This document shows positions 2,503 to 28,432 of a DNA stretch of 31,493 nucleotides, piece after piece. The DNA is from a virus, in the IMG/VR virus record IMGVR_UViG_3300047408_000092, positions 1-31,493 of that record, one strand, 5' to 3'. Position numbers and translations under genes: made by a program. Under the pieces are notes generated by a model. It was not told the DNA's origin. It was given only the letters and a program-made list of their open reading frames with translations, and did not search any database. The number at the start of each line of letters is the position of its first letter. Positions within the stretch are counted from its first letter, which is position 1.

Positions 2503-2646
2503 CTACTCGCGTCGCCCGCGGATGTGATCATCCAACCACGCCGAACTGACGAACTTGCCGCGATCGTCCCGGGGCGTGCGGGTGCGCCAGGCCCAGACGA
2601 CGACGGCCACCCCGCCAGCGAGGAAGAGCCCGACGACGATCCTCAT
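2503..2646 (-). CDS. Small single-span membrane protein, 47 aa
   Basis: A short gene whose ATG overlaps the stop of the cytosine methyltransferase as ATGA. Residues 3 to 20 (IVVGLFLAGGVAVVVWAW) form one transmembrane helix, followed by a basic RTRTPR stretch and a soluble tail ending DDHIRGRRE. By the positive-inside rule the C-terminus should be cytoplasmic. No function is known. The overlap, intact frame and clear membrane helix make it likely to be real. Confidence 0.7.
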   Translation of the reverse strand: MRIVVGLFLAGGVAVVVWAWRTRTPRDDRGKFVSSAWLDDHIRGRRE

Positions 2647-3812
2647 CCGCGCGGACTCGTCTCGTGTGCCGTTGGGCGGTCAGGTACCGCATCGCATGGC
2701 GGTGTGCTGTTAGGCGTCGTTGAGAGACTCATGTACGCCTCGATGAAGACTTGCGCGACTTGCGGTTTGATGGCGTTACCGTAGCCGCGCAGGCGTCCCA
2801 CGCGGTTGGATACCCCATGAGCCAACGGGAATGTGCCGGGTTCAACTGGCCGCGCTTTGCCGTCAGCGCATGGGAGCCAGTCGCAATGAGCCCAGAAACT
2901 TGACGCGGCACGGTGTCGTTCCGTTCCTTCCCGTCGCGACGTGTCATCGATCCAGATAGGTCGCCCGTGTCCTTGTGGTCCCGCGCAGTTGGGCTCGCCC
3001 AACTGGTCAACGTCACCTGATCGCGTAAATTGATCTGGTGTCCTTCCCGCATAGCCGGATCGCACCAGCCTCCGCTCCCCTCTTCGATGTTCGGCGTTCG
3101 CCAGCTCGCTAACTGCGCTGCTCCCGGTAGTTTGTGAAACTTCACCCGCGTTCCGTCCGGTTTCTTCGGCCCGTAGCAGTAATCGCTCCCAAGTTCGTCG
3201 TTGACCATCGGTGTCGGCCACGAAGATTTCGGCTGATACGCCAGATTCGGTTGCCCGCCATCCTTCCGTTCCGGATGATGTTTGCACGCGCCCCGAATAT
3301 CCGAGTGATTCGGACTCTGCCACGAACCACAATCGTTGCCGGATGTCGAACGCGCCGACGCACGGACCAGGGAGACCACACGCCCCGACGGCGTAGTCTT
3401 CCGCTTCCAGGTCATCGCAAAGACGATCGAGCCAGCCATGTCCAAGCGCTGCTTCAACCTGTTCCCCAAAGACGACGCCAGGGCGGCACTCTTTGACGAG
3501 CTGGAACCAGACAGGCCAAAGGTCGCGCGGATCGTGCCCGCCAGCTTGGGCGCCGGCACTCGAGAACGGCTGGCAGGGACAGGAGCCGGTCCAGACGGGT
3601 CGAGCATCGTCCCAGCCAGCGAGTCGGAGGGCGTAGCTCCAGCCGCCGATGCCGGCGAAGAAGTGGCACTGGGTAAATCCTCGAACATCGTCGGCTGTGA
3701 CTTCCACAATGCTCCGTTCATCGACGTCGCCATCCGCGATCAGTCCGGCCGTGATCAACTCGCGCAGCCACGCCGCCGCGAACGGATCGATCTCGTTGTA
3801 GTAGGCGGCCAT
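2643..3812 (-). CDS. DNA (cytosine-5) methyltransferase
   Basis: A 389-residue Dcm-type enzyme that would transfer a methyl group from SAM to cytosine C5. Visible motifs: motif I FFAGIGGWSYALRLAG (about 51-66); motif IV GSCPCQPFS with nucleophile Cys80; motif VI as GEQVE (117-119 EQV instead of the usual ENV, a variant common in phage enzymes); motif VIII DIRQRLWFVA (156-165); motif X GYGNAIKPQVAQVF (343-356). The middle (190-310) is a variable target-recognition region with LANAEHRRGERR and LGEPN-type segments. Likely roles are evasion of host restriction or regulation. Local base composition is less GC-rich than its neighbours, suggesting transfer. A second long frame lies inside it. Confidence 0.93.
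   Translation of the reverse strand: MAAYYNEIDPFAAAWLRELITAGLIADGDVDERSIVEVTADDVRGFTQCHFFAGIGGWSYALRLAGWDDARPVWTGSCPCQPFSSAGAQAGGHDPRDLWPVWFQLVKECRPGVVFGEQVEAALGHGWLDRLCDDLEAEDYAVGACGLPGPCVGAFDIRQRLWFVAESESLGYSGRVQTSSGTEGWRATESGVSAEIFVADTDGQRRTWERLLLRAEETGRNAGEVSQTTGSSAVSELANAEHRRGERRLVRSGYAGRTPDQFTRSGDVDQLGEPNCAGPQGHGRPIWIDDTSRREGTERHRAASSFWAHCDWLPCADGKARPVEPGTFPLAHGVSNRVGRLRGYGNAIKPQVAQVFIEAYMSLSTTPNSTPPCDAVPDRPTAHETSPRG
2729..3733 (-). CDS. Overlapping-frame protein, phage LNPAHSRWLMGYP family
   Basis: A 334-codon frame on the same strand, entirely inside the cytosine methyltransferase gene in another phase. It is not a featureless shadow. It resembles a phage protein family I recall from annotated phage genomes, often labelled as methyltransferase or hypothetical. 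Shared features are a Ser/Pro/Ala-rich start (MFEDLPSATSSPAS at codon 16), FAMTWKRKTTPSGR near 109, repeated SW-x-TP/SP-xxxD blocks (SWPTPMVNDE, SWASPTARDHKD), and the C-terminal LNPAHSRWLMGYPTAWDAC. No Shine-Dalgarno stands out for 3733 or 3688. Long open alternate frames arise easily in GC-rich DNA, so translation is uncertain, but the family likeness is specific. Function unknown; a partner of the methyltransferase is a guess. Confidence 0.5.
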   Translation of the reverse strand: MATSMNGALWKSQPTMFEDLPSATSSPASAAGATPSDSLAGTMLDPSGPAPVPASRSRVPAPKLAGTIRATFGLSGSSSSKSAALASSLGNRLKQRLDMAGSIVFAMTWKRKTTPSGRVVSLVRASARSTSGNDCGSWQSPNHSDIRGACKHHPERKDGGQPNLAYQPKSSWPTPMVNDELGSDYCYGPKKPDGTRVKFHKLPGAAQLASWRTPNIEEGSGGWCDPAMREGHQINLRDQVTLTSWASPTARDHKDTGDLSGSMTRRDGKERNDTVPRQVSGLIATGSHALTAKRGQLNPAHSRWLMGYPTAWDACAATVTPSNRKSRKSSSRRT

Positions 3813-21904: not shown

Positions 21905-22631
21905 GCCGATGGGCCTCCAGTTCCTTCGCGACGTCGCCGCGGGTCTTCGTAAAGTGGTGGTAGCCGAGGTTCGCGCGCCGGTTCGCCGCGCTCATCCGTT
22001 CCTGCCGATCGCGGACCCGTCGCGTCACCGCGAACGCGGGATCCGCGTTCTGCCAGTGCACCCCGTCGAAGTGATGGGTCGCGCAGAGCGGCGGCCGCCC
22101 GAGGATCCCGTGGTTGCCGACGTCGAACATCAGCCCACGGTTCGCCCGAATCACGATCGGCTTCTCGTTGCCCTCGGCCCGGATGCCGTGCCGCCGCTGC
22201 CACACGATCGGCACCTGGGTGACGTCGAGGTCGGCGTCGGTCTCATGCCGAAAGACGTCCAACCGGTACGCGCGCAGCGCCAGACAGCCATCCGGCACCG
22301 ACGCCAAATACGCGGCCGCGGTCGCCCCGCTCGGCGAGTCGGGCGGATAGATGAATTCGTCGGCGTCGAGGACCAGGTGCCAGGCGTGCGTCGGGTCCGG
22401 CACGCGGATCGCGTCGTTGAGCCAGCCCACCTTGATCACGTCGTCGAGGCCGTCCGGGCTGATGACGTCCTGGATCGTCACGCGCGGATCGGCGGCGAGC
22501 AGCGCCCGCGTGTCGTCGGTGCAGCGATCGACGATCGCATGGATCGCGTCGACGTAGCCGGCGTGGTAGTGCGCCAGGAAGAACGGCACGAGCGCCGCTT
22601 CGTTGTAGAAGCAGCAGAAGGCTTTGATCAT
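21885..22631 (-). CDS. GT-A glycosyltransferase (family 2/92-like)
   Basis: A 248-residue protein starting MIKAFCCFYNEAALVPFFLA, the start pattern of the Glyco_tranf_2_4/family 92 group, with IHAIVDRCTDDTRALL and HLVLDADEFIYPP where DAD (89-91) is the metal site. The C-terminal half has several His and Trp residues and YHHFTKTRGDVAKELE. Likely a cytoplasmic transferase with unknown acceptor. Its ATG overlaps the stop of the DNA methyltransferase as ATGA. Confidence 0.82.
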   Translation of the reverse strand: MIKAFCCFYNEAALVPFFLAHYHAGYVDAIHAIVDRCTDDTRALLAADPRVTIQDVISPDGLDDVIKVGWLNDAIRVPDPTHAWHLVLDADEFIYPPDSPSGATAAAYLASVPDGCLALRAYRLDVFRHETDADLDVTQVPIVWQRRHGIRAEGNEKPIVIRANRGLMFDVGNHGILGRPPLCATHHFDGVHWQNADPAFAVTRRVRDRQERMSAANRRANLGYHHFTKTRGDVAKELEAHRHDAVVL

Positions 22632-23320
22632 GCCGAGACCTCCAGCGGGAGGACTTCTTGACTGAGGCGCTTCGCTGCGATCTCGCAGTACTTTTCTTCA
22701 CGCTCGATGCCGACACACTGACGCCCGAGGCGCTTGGCCGCGACCAGTGTGGTCCCGCTGCCCATAAATGGATCGAGGATCGTTTTCACATCCTGCGGGG
22801 CTTGCATGAGTGCCCACCGCATCACTGGTTCAGGCTTTTGGGTCGGATGCCAACGCTCTTCTTTTGGACATCCGGGCTCGGTCAACATCCCGTGCCAGCG
22901 GTAGGTCAGGCGACGCACCGGCTTGTCGAAATTCGTCCACACCAGTTCACAGTCTGCGTAGTCGTTGCTGCCGTTTTCTTTGTCCCAGACAAGCCAGCAG
23001 CGCGTGATCGGAAGGTCGTAGTAGTTCCCGCCGAATATCGCGTGCCACTTCGACAGCCGACGTGCCACGGCAATAGCCTCTGTAGCTGGCCTGTGGTCCC
23101 ACGCTTTGACGTTGCCGTAGTCCTTACTCGGCGCGAGAGCCTTGCCGCCTTGCCTATTCGCGCGCCCCTGCTGGCCTCGCTCAGCGCCGATGCCGTACGG
23201 CGGATCGGTCAACAACAGATCGAACGGCGTCAGCCCGAAATGCACGTCAAAGTCATCGAGCACGGTCAACGCCGACCCGTGGTAGATCGTGATCCCCGCG
23301 TGCTCGTAGTACGGCGTCAC
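22628..23320 (-). CDS. DNA N6-adenine / N4-cytosine methyltransferase
   Basis: A 230-residue enzyme beginning at a GTG that overlaps the upstream stop as GTGA. Catalytic motif IV is TDPPYG (about 38-43), and the SAM-binding motif I is ILDPFMGSGTTLVAA near the C-terminus (181-195), with HPTQKPEPVM before it, the motif order of beta-class enzymes. It would methylate adenine N6 or cytosine N4 at an unknown site. Less GC-rich than its neighbours, it looks like a later acquisition inside the glycosyltransferase block. Protection against restriction is the simplest role. Confidence 0.9.
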   Translation of the reverse strand: MTPYYEHAGITIYHGSALTVLDDFDVHFGLTPFDLLLTDPPYGIGAERGQQGRANRQGGKALAPSKDYGNVKAWDHRPATEAIAVARRLSKWHAIFGGNYYDLPITRCWLVWDKENGSNDYADCELVWTNFDKPVRRLTYRWHGMLTEPGCPKEERWHPTQKPEPVMRWALMQAPQDVKTILDPFMGSGTTLVAAKRLGRQCVGIEREEKYCEIAAKRLSQEVLPLEVSA

Positions 23321-23943
23321 GCCGCCACCGTCAGGCGCGCGAGCTCGTCCGCGAGCGGCGCGCACGGGAAGGTGGTCAGCACGGTGCGGCGCGAGCAGTT
23401 GATGACCGTCACGCCGGCCGCGGCGAGCGGCTCGACGAGCGACGGCCAGGCGGCCAGCCACTGCGGATACTCGTACGGCGACGGCGTCTGATCCGGGTGC
23501 GGGGCATGCCAGTGTTGCCGGCCGTCCGGCGTCGGGCTCATGTCGAACCCGAGCAGGAGAATGCGCGCCGCGCCGAGATGGACGGCGAGGTTCACGGCCT
23601 GGTAGCCGGAATTCCGACCCGTCCGCAGCCCGGTCGGCTCGCGCTCGAGGCCGAGCGGGCCGGTGTTGCGCAGCACCTGGACGTCGGGATACTTCGTCTC
23701 CTCCATCGGCGCGATCGCGTACTTCAGGCCGGCGAACGCCGGCGCCCCGTGCGCCCAGGTCCACCACTTCTGATCGGCCGCGTACAGGACCGCGGCCCAC
23801 GGCGCGAGCTGCCACGCGTTGTTGATGGCGATCGCCGGGCAGCGGCCGCCGTAACAGGCATCGACGTCGGCGACCGTGAGGCTCGGCCCGCCGCCAAACA
23901 GCACCATCGTCGCGCCAGGGAACAACCGGGGCACCGTCGGCAT
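23317..23943 (-). CDS. DUF115/MptE-like glycosyltransferase-related protein
   Basis: A 208-residue protein with the phage pattern FGGGPSLT near the start, PAIAINNAWQLAPWAAVLYA, ADQKWWTWAH, GRNSGYQAVNLAVHLGA and RILLLGFDM. This resembles the DUF115 / 6-hydroxymethylpterin pyrophosphokinase MptE-like group, relatives of sialyl- and motility-associated glycosyltransferases. It heads the sugar-transfer block, directly after two small genes that follow the portal. Biochemical activity cannot be decided from sequence alone. Confidence 0.75.
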   Translation of the reverse strand: MPTVPRLFPGATMVLFGGGPSLTVADVDACYGGRCPAIAINNAWQLAPWAAVLYAADQKWWTWAHGAPAFAGLKYAIAPMEETKYPDVQVLRNTGPLGLEREPTGLRTGRNSGYQAVNLAVHLGAARILLLGFDMSPTPDGRQHWHAPHPDQTPSPYEYPQWLAAWPSLVEPLAAAGVTVINCSRRTVLTTFPCAPLADELARLTVAA

Positions 23944-26198: not shown

Positions 26199-28100
26199 CT
26201 ACGCGACGTAGGCCGCCGGGCCGATGTACCGCGCCGCGCCGGTGCGCCGCAGTTTCCAGGTGACCTCGCGGTTCGCCTTGATACCGAGCAAGCCCGACTG
26301 CCAGAGCGAGACCAGGCTCGCGCCGGTGCCGACGATGCCGGTCTGCACCAGGCTGACATCGAGCATCTCGATCGACGCCTGGTCGCTCGCCTCGACCGTC
26401 ACGACGCCGTCGTCGGCGAGGTAGATGTCCCCCGCCTTGACCGCGACGATGATGTCCTCGTCGGGCGAGCCGAGCGCGACCATCGCCTCGCTGGTGATGA
26501 CCGGGAAGCCCAGCAGGGTCCCGCCGGCCATCGTCAGCCCGGGGAAGCTCTGGACGCCGAGCGTGTTGATCATCAGCGACAGGTTCAGCGCGCGCACCGT
26601 CGACATGATCAGCACGATGTCGGATGGGTCGAGCAGCAGCGTCGCGAACGTGCCGAGCAGCGTCGCAAAGTCGGTTCGGAAGGCCGCGGCTGTCGCCGCC
26701 GTGGGCGCGATCGGCGCGGTGTTGAACGTGATCGACGCGGGCGACACGTTGGCGACCGCCGCCTTGCCGGGATCGATGAAGTCGATGTCCATGCGATAGA
26801 TGATCGCGCGCGCGAGATCGTCCCGGACCTTGGCTTCCGCGCTCGGGTTGGAGAAGCGGACTTCCTCCTTGGTGAGAATCGCGAGCGCCTCGATCTTGGC
26901 CCAGGTGAGCGAGGTCGTGAACGTCGTCATCTTGGAGACCGGGACCGGGAGCCCTTCCCCGACCCAGTACCCCGTCGTGCCGGCCGAGGCGCCCGTCACG
27001 CGCACGTTGAACGGCACGCGCCGCAGGCCGGGGATCTTGCCGACGATGGTCCGCGGGCGCAGGAACTCGATGAAGTCGTCCATCATCGACGCGTAGACGA
27101 GCTCCGAGGCCCAGCCGGCGGTCTGCGTGTTGCCCGCCGGGACGGCCGCGCGCTGCACCATCGCGAGCACCGCGGGATCGTCCGGGTAGTACTGCTTCAC
27201 CAGCCGTTCGGCGAGATCGGGGCTCCCCTTGGACGCCGCGATGCACATCGCGCCGCGAGCGAATCCGATCCCGGGCGGGAGCTTCTTCTCGACGGTGATG
27301 ACGTGCGAGCCGGACCGGGAGGCGGCGGCCTGGGTCGGATCGGCGCCGGCCACCGGCTTGGCCGCGGCCTTCTCGCGCGCTTCGGCAGCCCGGAGCCGCA
27401 GGAGCTGCGCGTCGATCTTCGCGACGTCGTCGGCCAGCGTGTCGTGCTCCTCCTGCTCGGCCTCGTCGAGGGTGACGCCGGCGTCGCCGGACTTGGTCAG
27501 GAGTTCGTCCATGCGGGCAGTCTTGGCGGCGCGCGTGGCTTCCCAACTCGCGATCTGATCCGCGTAGCTCTTCTTCGTCATCGGCTTGTCCTTTTGCATG
27601 TGCACACGGCCCGAGGCGCCGGGCTGATGACGGCCAGACGCGGCCTTGATCGAGAGAATCGAGGCGTCGGTGTTCGCGGGAATCGTCACCACCGACAGCT
27701 CGAGCCAAAGCCACTTCAGGAAGTGATAGCCGCCGCTCGTCTTGTCGTAGGACTCCTCGAGGCTTTTGAACCCGATCGAGAGCCCTTTGACCAGGCCGAT
27801 CTTGATGGCCTGCCAGGCGTCATCGAGCCGGGTCTTCAGCGCGCCGGGTTCGTCCGTCTTCGCGAGGCGCGCCTGGATCTCGATCCCGGCGTCGGTGACC
27901 TTCGCGGCGAAGACCTCGCCGATCGGTTCGCGGCTGTTGTGTTGCCAGAGGAGCGGGATCGGCAGCTTGAACTGCGCGCCGCCGGGTTCGACGACGTCGT
28001 CCATCAGGTCGGCGGTCGCCGAGCTCGCGATCCCGGTCAGGATGCGCTGCTCGGCGTCGATCGATTTGATCTGGAGAATGGCGAACGCGCGACGGTTCAC
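26199..28100 (-). CDS. Prohead protease - major capsid protein fusion
   Basis: A 633-residue fusion. Residues 1 to about 150 are an S78-type maturation protease: LTGIASSATADLMDDVVEPG, LLWQHNSREPIGEV with His54, KGLSIGF with Ser108, and ELSVVTIPAN. A charged coiled-coil linker (about 174-255) matches the scaffold (delta) domain, and the HK97-fold capsid follows (VPAGNTQTAGWASEL, RTIVGKIPGLRRVPF, GYWVGEGLPVPVSK). No ATG precedes the protease, so GTG 28100 (NRRAFAIL) is chosen; it lacks a good Shine-Dalgarno. An internal ATG at 27581 (MTKKSY) has AAAAGGA eight bases before it, so a separate 460-residue capsid subunit is probably also made. Confidence 0.9.
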   Translation of the reverse strand: MNRRAFAILQIKSIDAEQRILTGIASSATADLMDDVVEPGGAQFKLPIPLLWQHNSREPIGEVFAAKVTDAGIEIQARLAKTDEPGALKTRLDDAWQAIKIGLVKGLSIGFKSLEESYDKTSGGYHFLKWLWLELSVVTIPANTDASILSIKAASGRHQPGASGRVHMQKDKPMTKKSYADQIASWEATRAAKTARMDELLTKSGDAGVTLDEAEQEEHDTLADDVAKIDAQLLRLRAAEAREKAAAKPVAGADPTQAAASRSGSHVITVEKKLPPGIGFARGAMCIAASKGSPDLAERLVKQYYPDDPAVLAMVQRAAVPAGNTQTAGWASELVYASMMDDFIEFLRPRTIVGKIPGLRRVPFNVRVTGASAGTTGYWVGEGLPVPVSKMTTFTTSLTWAKIEALAILTKEEVRFSNPSAEAKVRDDLARAIIYRMDIDFIDPGKAAVANVSPASITFNTAPIAPTAATAAAFRTDFATLLGTFATLLLDPSDIVLIMSTVRALNLSLMINTLGVQSFPGLTMAGGTLLGFPVITSEAMVALGSPDEDIIVAVKAGDIYLADDGVVTVEASDQASIEMLDVSLVQTGIVGTGASLVSLWQSGLLGIKANREVTWKLRRTGAARYIGPAAYVA

Positions 28101-28252
28101 GCCGATGAGTCTGCGGCAGTTTTCGGGGGAGGGAATTGTTCTGTAGGGAAAAGGGCTGGGGACCGTTTGCCGACCGCCACCGTCTCGCGGGGTATGTTGG
28201 GCCCCGACGGTCCAAGCGGCCACAGATTCCCCCCGCGCCGACACGGTCGACT
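28101..28252. other. Non-coding gap before the protease-capsid gene
   Basis: About 150 bases between the ribbon-helix-helix gene and the capsid fusion, one of the few real gaps in the operon. An upstream in-frame extension of the capsid ORF runs through it without looking protein-like. I see no convincing promoter or hairpin; it may be a leader or a control region for capsid expression. Confidence 0.35.
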
Positions 28253-28432
28253 TCAGCGTTTCAACTTCAACAAATCCCTGACGAGTCCCGACAGGCTTTC
28301 CCCGCGCGCATTCGCCAACCGGACCAGCCGGTCGTACTCGCTCGTCGAGATCCACGCCGTGATAGGCGTAGTCGGGTCCTCCACTTTCGGGCGACCGCGC
28401 GTGGGCGGATCGTCCTTCGGGGGATCAGCCAT
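28253..28432 (-). CDS. Ribbon-helix-helix-like small protein, 59 aa
   Basis: A short gene with a strong Shine-Dalgarno (GGGAGG six bases before ATG 28432). After a Pro/Arg/Asp-rich start, the second half (TPITAWISTSEYDRLVRLAN, then ARGESLSGLVRDLLKLKR) has the strand-helix-helix layout of CopG/Arc-type DNA-binding proteins. It sits just upstream of the capsid gap, so it might control late expression. DNA binding is inferred from the pattern. Confidence 0.65.
   Translation of the reverse strand: MADPPKDDPPTRGRPKVEDPTTPITAWISTSEYDRLVRLANARGESLSGLVRDLLKLKR

Follow-up and report, generated by a model that had tools for sequence, protein, structure and literature searches.

A 31.5-kb IMG/VR virus record, called the window here, carries two minus-strand open reading frames (ORFs) that overlap over about 1 kb, each recognisable as a member of a protein family. 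The locus raises the question of whether it encodes two genes, one gene and its shadow, or one enzyme in two parts. An earlier note had placed the frames at 2643–3812 and, as 334 codons without a stop, at 2729–3733 on the same strand, had regarded both as family-like (now PF00145 and phrog_363 for the first, phrog_1008 and phrog_31772 for the second), and had called the overlap informative; all of this holds. The favoured answer, given a probability of roughly 0.8, is one cytosine-5 (C5) DNA methyltransferase (MTase) made as two polypeptides from overlapping frames, which would assemble so that the second chain (beta) picks the DNA sequence and the first (alpha) methylates it.

Alpha comprises the following features:
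2643..3812, minus strand: alpha, C5-MTase catalytic polypeptide of 389 aa, with motifs I–VIII and X (PF00145, phrog_363)
3639..3662, minus strand: motif I, FFAGIGGW, residues 51–58 (alignments)
3561..3578, minus strand: motif IV, PCQPFS with the catalytic Cys, residues 79–84 (alignments; HMMER alignment to M.HhaI)
3456..3467, minus strand: motif VI, GEQV in place of ENV, with E117, Q118, and V119 invariant (alignment)
3321..3344, minus strand: motif VIII, IRQRLWFV, residues 157–164 (alignment; HMMER alignment to M.HhaI)
2883..3275, minus strand: linker, residues 180–310, predicted disordered and fast-changing, the non-constrained frame over the target-recognition (TRD) DNA (pLDDT ~40; identity 53% vs 83% for beta)
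2754..2804, minus strand: motif X, RVGRLRGYGNAIKPQVA, residues 337–353 (alignments, AF2)

Profile searches assign the MTase frame to PF00145 (E 6e-12) and phrog_363 (8e-76), and motifs I, IV (PCQ), VI (Glu invariant despite GEQV), VIII, and X occur in order, in agreement with the earlier reading of this frame. The AF2 model of alpha superposes on M.HhaI with a Z score of 17.1 and an rmsd of 2.0 Å over 170 residues, and has the C5-MTase large-domain fold. Its pLDDT is mostly >85 in residues 1–150, ~95 in the motif X helix, and ~40 in residues 190–300. PDB sequence matches to alpha end at motif VIII. The window alpha contains no motif IX-like block, and its TRD region is unconstrained and predicted to be disordered. 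Motif VI reads (G)EQV across the whole RW-type clade (3456–3467 in the window), an uncommon variant of the catalytic ENV.

The second frame comprises the following features:
2729..3733, minus strand: beta, second polypeptide, +1 frame, 334 aa when the ATG farthest upstream is used (phrog_1008, synonymous constraint, codon-shuffle HMM test)
3353..3493, minus strand: core, residues 81–127, predicted helix and hairpin containing GSIVFAMTWKRKTTPSGR (confident part of the AF2 beta model; invariant or near-invariant residues)
3221..3322, minus strand: putative TRD cassette 1, WQSPNHSD... (module segmentation)
3104..3220, minus strand: putative TRD cassette 2, WPTPMVNDELGSDYCYG... (module segmentation; common to phage epsilon15 and many others)
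3002..3103, minus strand: putative TRD cassette 3, WRTPNIEEGSGG... (module segmentation)
2894..3001, minus strand: putative TRD cassette 4, WASPTARDHKDTGDL... (module segmentation)
2798..2845, minus strand: motif IX-like block, LNPAHSRWLMGYPTAW, residues 297–312, with L297, W304, L305, P309, and W312 invariant

Beta aligns with phrog_1008 over most of the profile length (E 2.1e-26, residues 20–320 on 14–286 of 329) and with phrog_31772 (1e-18); Pfam and NCBIfam searches gave no match. Both phrog families are labelled 'DNA methyltransferase', a label that is inherited, and their members would be beta subunits that lack catalytic motifs. Beyond its conserved core, beta holds four W-x-T/S-P cassettes and, at the place expected for motif IX, LNPAHSRWLMGYP. 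On the DNA, its C-terminal block LNPAHSRWLMGYPTAW lies between motifs VIII and X, and HHalign places LNP..WLMG.P best on canonical motif IX, by a short and weak similarity (P 0.04). Modelled alone by AF2, beta has a mean pLDDT of 58. Searched against PDB sequences, the beta profile gave no match up to E 10, and a fold search with the model gave none at E 0.001, the model being too poor for this absence to count.

The motif order along the DNA is canonical (I–VIII, TRD, IX, X), with a frame switch after VIII and another after IX; the motifs of the two chains are complementary. The pair LANAEHRRGERR and SWRTPNIEEGSGG, quoted earlier as one stretch read in two frames, does derive from the same bases. 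Codon position 3 of the MTase is position 2 of beta; each silent third-position change in alpha therefore alters beta.

Whether MTase conservation and codon bias produce the second frame as a mere by-product, with artefactual phrog_1008-type entries, can be judged from recoded sequences. A beta HMM built without the window scores window beta at 364 bits and the third frame at −2, and scores 300 synonymous recodings of the MTase at 123 ± 17 bits (maximum 177). About 123 of the 364 bits are thus inherited from the conserved residues of alpha, and the match of the second frame to the beta family exceeds chance. High GC content lengthens ORFs, but the frame is kept open in Paenibacillus phage Sitara despite 45% GC. 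Across 130 homologues, compared with codon shuffles that preserve the alpha protein, the +1 frame has a mean open run of 320 codons (164 expected) and 400 stops (755 expected); the +2 frame shows no stop deficit (2075 observed vs 1864 expected).

Synonymous variation was measured in 116 alphas filtered at 85% identity. Observed over expected synonymous entropy is 0.94, nearly neutral, upstream of the overlap and 0.63 inside it. Free codon variation and frequent stops in the second frame had been named beforehand as signs against that frame, and neither is found. Fixed alpha codons in the overlap include Val322 GTT (96/96), Pro324 CCC (104/104), Phe327 TTC (103/103), and Val118 GTT (115/115), and in the LNPAHSRWLMG block the synonymous codons of alpha are almost wholly fixed. 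Alpha Leu codons opposite beta Trp are nearly always CTG or TTG, a swap that is silent in either frame, which favours protein coding over nucleic-acid structure. RNA or DNA structure was rejected as the cause of the constraint for this reason, as the silent changes that are tolerated are also silent in beta.

The dominant frame changes along the gene. Upstream of the overlap, substitutions at alpha positions 1/2/3 are 0.066/0.050/0.327, and the value for position 3 drops to 0.115 in the motif IX region. In-phase homologous blocks of the TRD region give 0.392/0.151/0.090, position 1 being the beta wobble position, and amino-acid identity is 83% for beta, 53% for alpha, and 55% for the third frame. 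EW-type relatives, picked by a different pattern, show the same less sharply (0.297/0.122/0.150; identity 66% for alpha, 79% for beta, 60% for the third frame). This inversion, together with the identities, indicates that alpha is mostly a passenger there, its frame staying open over the TRD to let motif X be reached; the pLDDT profile of the alpha model agrees. A target-recognition region had been assigned to the MTase frame; alpha only reads through it, and it is the second frame that is constrained there. A by-product is already contradicted by the fixed synonymous codons, of which there are scores, and by the higher beta identity in two sets of relatives; this explanation is given almost no weight. 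Beta is a selected coding frame and no shadow of alpha. Of the two earlier options, overprinting or a database artefact, the second is correct in that the database entries are products of MTase loci, but not in its implication, as the coding is genuine and under strong selection.

Translation of beta appears to start within the alpha gene. In many betas an ATG is formed from the Glu-Asp-Val codons of alpha, and an upstream AGGAG from Arg-Ser codons. An SD sequence at that place is present in 32 of 73 loci that have the conserved ATG and in none of the 39 that lack it (p 8e-8). When every combination of an SD with a beta-frame start is counted, 169 of 234 loci have one (44 expected), as do 43 of 89 EW types (10.6 expected); the loci were unfiltered for relatedness, so these counts are not all independent. 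In the window, the candidate starts of beta are 3733, 3721, and 3688, none with a strong SD. The enrichment, a further point against a by-product, speaks for independent initiation rather than frameshifting. A single long polypeptide could instead result from two programmed frameshifts, one to +1 past motif VIII and one back past IX. The motifs are collinear on the DNA and the frame-switch points move between relatives, as that model would have it; however, beta reaches far upstream of motif VIII and has conserved residues there, and an unsystematic look noticed no shared slippery site.

Rearranged relatives bear on this model and also, as stronger evidence than the HHalign result, on the identity of motif IX. 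In L266 and L313, alpha itself carries the IX-like block, between VIII and X in one ORF, together with motif X; their core and cassettes remain in the +1 frame. In L264, L308, L284, L303, and mycobacteriophage Goose, the cassettes, IX, and X are all in beta and alpha ends soon after VIII; in L264, L308, and L284 the abandoned alpha frame is now full of stops. With beta open through TRD, IX, and X in L264, L308, L284, and L303, a double frameshift is considered unlikely, although L288 seems to change frame at a G run. L288 had been a candidate for a single-frame member with all cassettes and was rejected because its core and first cassette are in +1. At L288:2017-3478 (+), the core and first LPTP cassette occupy +1, and the later cassettes, IX, and X share the frame of I–VIII; the change at the G run may be an indel or a frameshift.

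In an alternative reading, beta overprints an MTase gene and is an unrelated protein with a role in regulation or counter-defence. The same relatives, read in favour of two separate chains, also weigh against this. No fold can be recognised in beta by itself, as might hold for such a protein, but beta carries the motif IX block at the collinear place while alpha lacks the usual IX, and beta also takes X in some relatives as alpha takes IX in others. Alpha accompanies every beta in ~325 loci, with the offset +1 in 315; no beta without alpha was found among them, six apparent exceptions being cut by contig ends. An unrelated overprinted protein is therefore regarded as very improbable, and one C5 MTase spread over two frames explains the pattern better than the new gene overprinted on an old one that had been proposed. 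Stand-alone members of the second family, whose lack had been expected to speak against it, are indeed missing in these loci; this is the pattern that obligate partner subunits would give, and it does not refute a function.

In a tree of the catalytic domain, 80 two-frame rows group apart from 11 canonical MTases (support 100/98), and three members with IX and X in beta fall at three separate places among the other two-frame enzymes. A single origin of the two-frame enzymes is suggested, not proven, as few canonical sequences are in the tree. Some rows labelled 'canon' are refetched prophage two-frame genes (L385–L388, by tree place and genomes), and L397, labelled likewise, is two-frame on direct check. 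The betas of L043 and L085 outrun the alpha stop (beta to 3995 vs alpha 3523; beta to 3794 vs alpha 3616), which suggests C-terminal extensions. In Komagataeibacter phage phiKX1 (L004:2272-2783), alpha motif X is separated from the beta stop by an HNH-like cassette; the alpha ORF (1137–2783) is open through it, so the enzyme may hold an in-frame insertion. Streptococcus phage MM1 ORF14 (L401:1604-2029), annotated as a nested 'DNA methyltransferase' in +1, was rejected as a beta: the MTase that it overlaps is canonical and single-frame, with LTPRECWRLQGFP in frame, and ORF14 is probably a spurious ORF.

The two-frame layout is common to hundreds of phages and prophages, usually with only one protein in databases. 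In phage records, tblastn found the beta frame in 215 and alpha in 302; an EW-type alpha-frame query returned 1429 records, which are C5-MTase relatives generally and not a count of betas. Both frames are present in all 80 alpha-fetched and all 80 beta-fetched IMG/VR loci. Bacterial genome contigs of several phyla gave 130 relatives by a strict beta pattern, 80 of which were fetched. Annotation varies: alpha alone (epsilon15, SG4), both frames (K1ind2, PhiXhv-28, Sitara), or fragments. The Sitara annotation carries the note 'g59 internal gene', and the nested ORF of K1ind2 was named 'Mte8-like' by its annotator, which is a lead only. Downstream of the window locus is a primosomal-protein-like gene, as beside the MTase of Salmonella phage epsilon15.

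In M.EcoHK31I, the gene for the large polypeptide also encodes the small one in an alternative frame, and activity needs both. As described in PMC3404938, citing Lee et al. 1995, M.EcoHK31I is a two-polypeptide C5 MTase (YGGCCR) with motifs I–VIII and X in the large chain and motif IX alone in the smaller one. According to PMC3404938, its TRD was predicted in the large subunit, and in M.AquI the variable region is divided between the subunits. The window shares this M.EcoHK31I layout, a likeness of motif arrangement, and most likely works in the same way. By selection and disorder prediction, however, the TRD here belongs to the smaller frame nested in the other, where it mostly consists of several cassettes, and the architecture occurs in hundreds of phages and prophages, also in rearranged forms. 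The relatives with alpha I–VIII and beta TRD-IX-X (L264, L308, L284, L303, and Goose) resemble M.AquI, which is split near the TRD; in the window, by contrast, motif X is in alpha, beta is wholly nested in alpha, and the entire TRD is in beta. A TRD in beta, modular cassettes, and frame-switch points that move between relatives are new with respect to M.EcoHK31I, and the siting of the TRD in the large subunit of M.EcoHK31I-like enzymes is now in question. Multispecific phage C5 MTases of the SPbeta/phi3T type carry tandem, exchangeable recognition modules in one enzyme. Those are single-frame proteins, as was one phage MTase of this type that was checked, whereas the cassettes here are in another frame and another chain. 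Beyond mentions of EcoHK31I and AquI, no description of overlapping or alternative-frame C5 MTases in phages was found in the open-licence literature.

In the proposed enzyme, alpha would supply the AdoMet-binding and catalytic domain (I–VIII), a long unconstrained linker, and the motif X helix, with which that domain is complete. Beta, with its start inside the alpha gene in +1, would supply a small core, tandem cassettes as TRD, and motif IX. The chains would assemble into a working enzyme in which the cassettes contact DNA, beta setting the target and alpha carrying out methylation, and the role is most likely self-methylation that shields phage DNA from host restriction. As the AF2 beta model is poor and matches no fold, we infer that the cassettes are recognition modules from their position between VIII and IX, their variability, and their shuffling. 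By pattern, a beta has mostly 2–4 W-x-T/S-P cassettes (range 0–6), usually of 30–45 residues each. One cassette type can be found at varying positions with varying neighbours; for example, Xanthomonas phage PhiXhv-28 and Erythrobacter phage R6L share one type, placed before the end. Each cassette of ~30–45 codons may recognise one target, with cassettes exchanged among phages as interchangeable DNA blocks that have to remain open in both frames; the products would be multispecific two-chain MTases. Their clade would be a single one, descended from a canonical C5 MTase whose frame was split, and the frame border within it would have moved repeatedly (IX and X between chains). This wider scenario is evenly poised between right and wrong.

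On the two-chain model, what looks like conflicting annotation in hundreds of phage and prophage genomes would become a defined architecture, with catalysis in one frame and target choice in the other. If so, annotation of alpha or beta alone, or cloning of one ORF, would lead to inactive enzymes and wrong specificity predictions. The same-strand overlap is unusually long, ancient, and strongly selected. As its frames swap dominance along the gene and rearranged relatives serve as natural controls, it is a good test system for the evolution of overlapping genes.

Two other ORFs of the window were noted. A second DNA methyltransferase-like ORF at 22631–23815 (minus strand) matches phrog_67 (E 6e-39) in its C-terminal half. 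A 718-aa ORF at 26202–28355 (minus strand) matches head maturation protease and major head protein families (phrog_617, 9e-129; phrog_80, 6e-32) and is a probable protease-capsid fusion.
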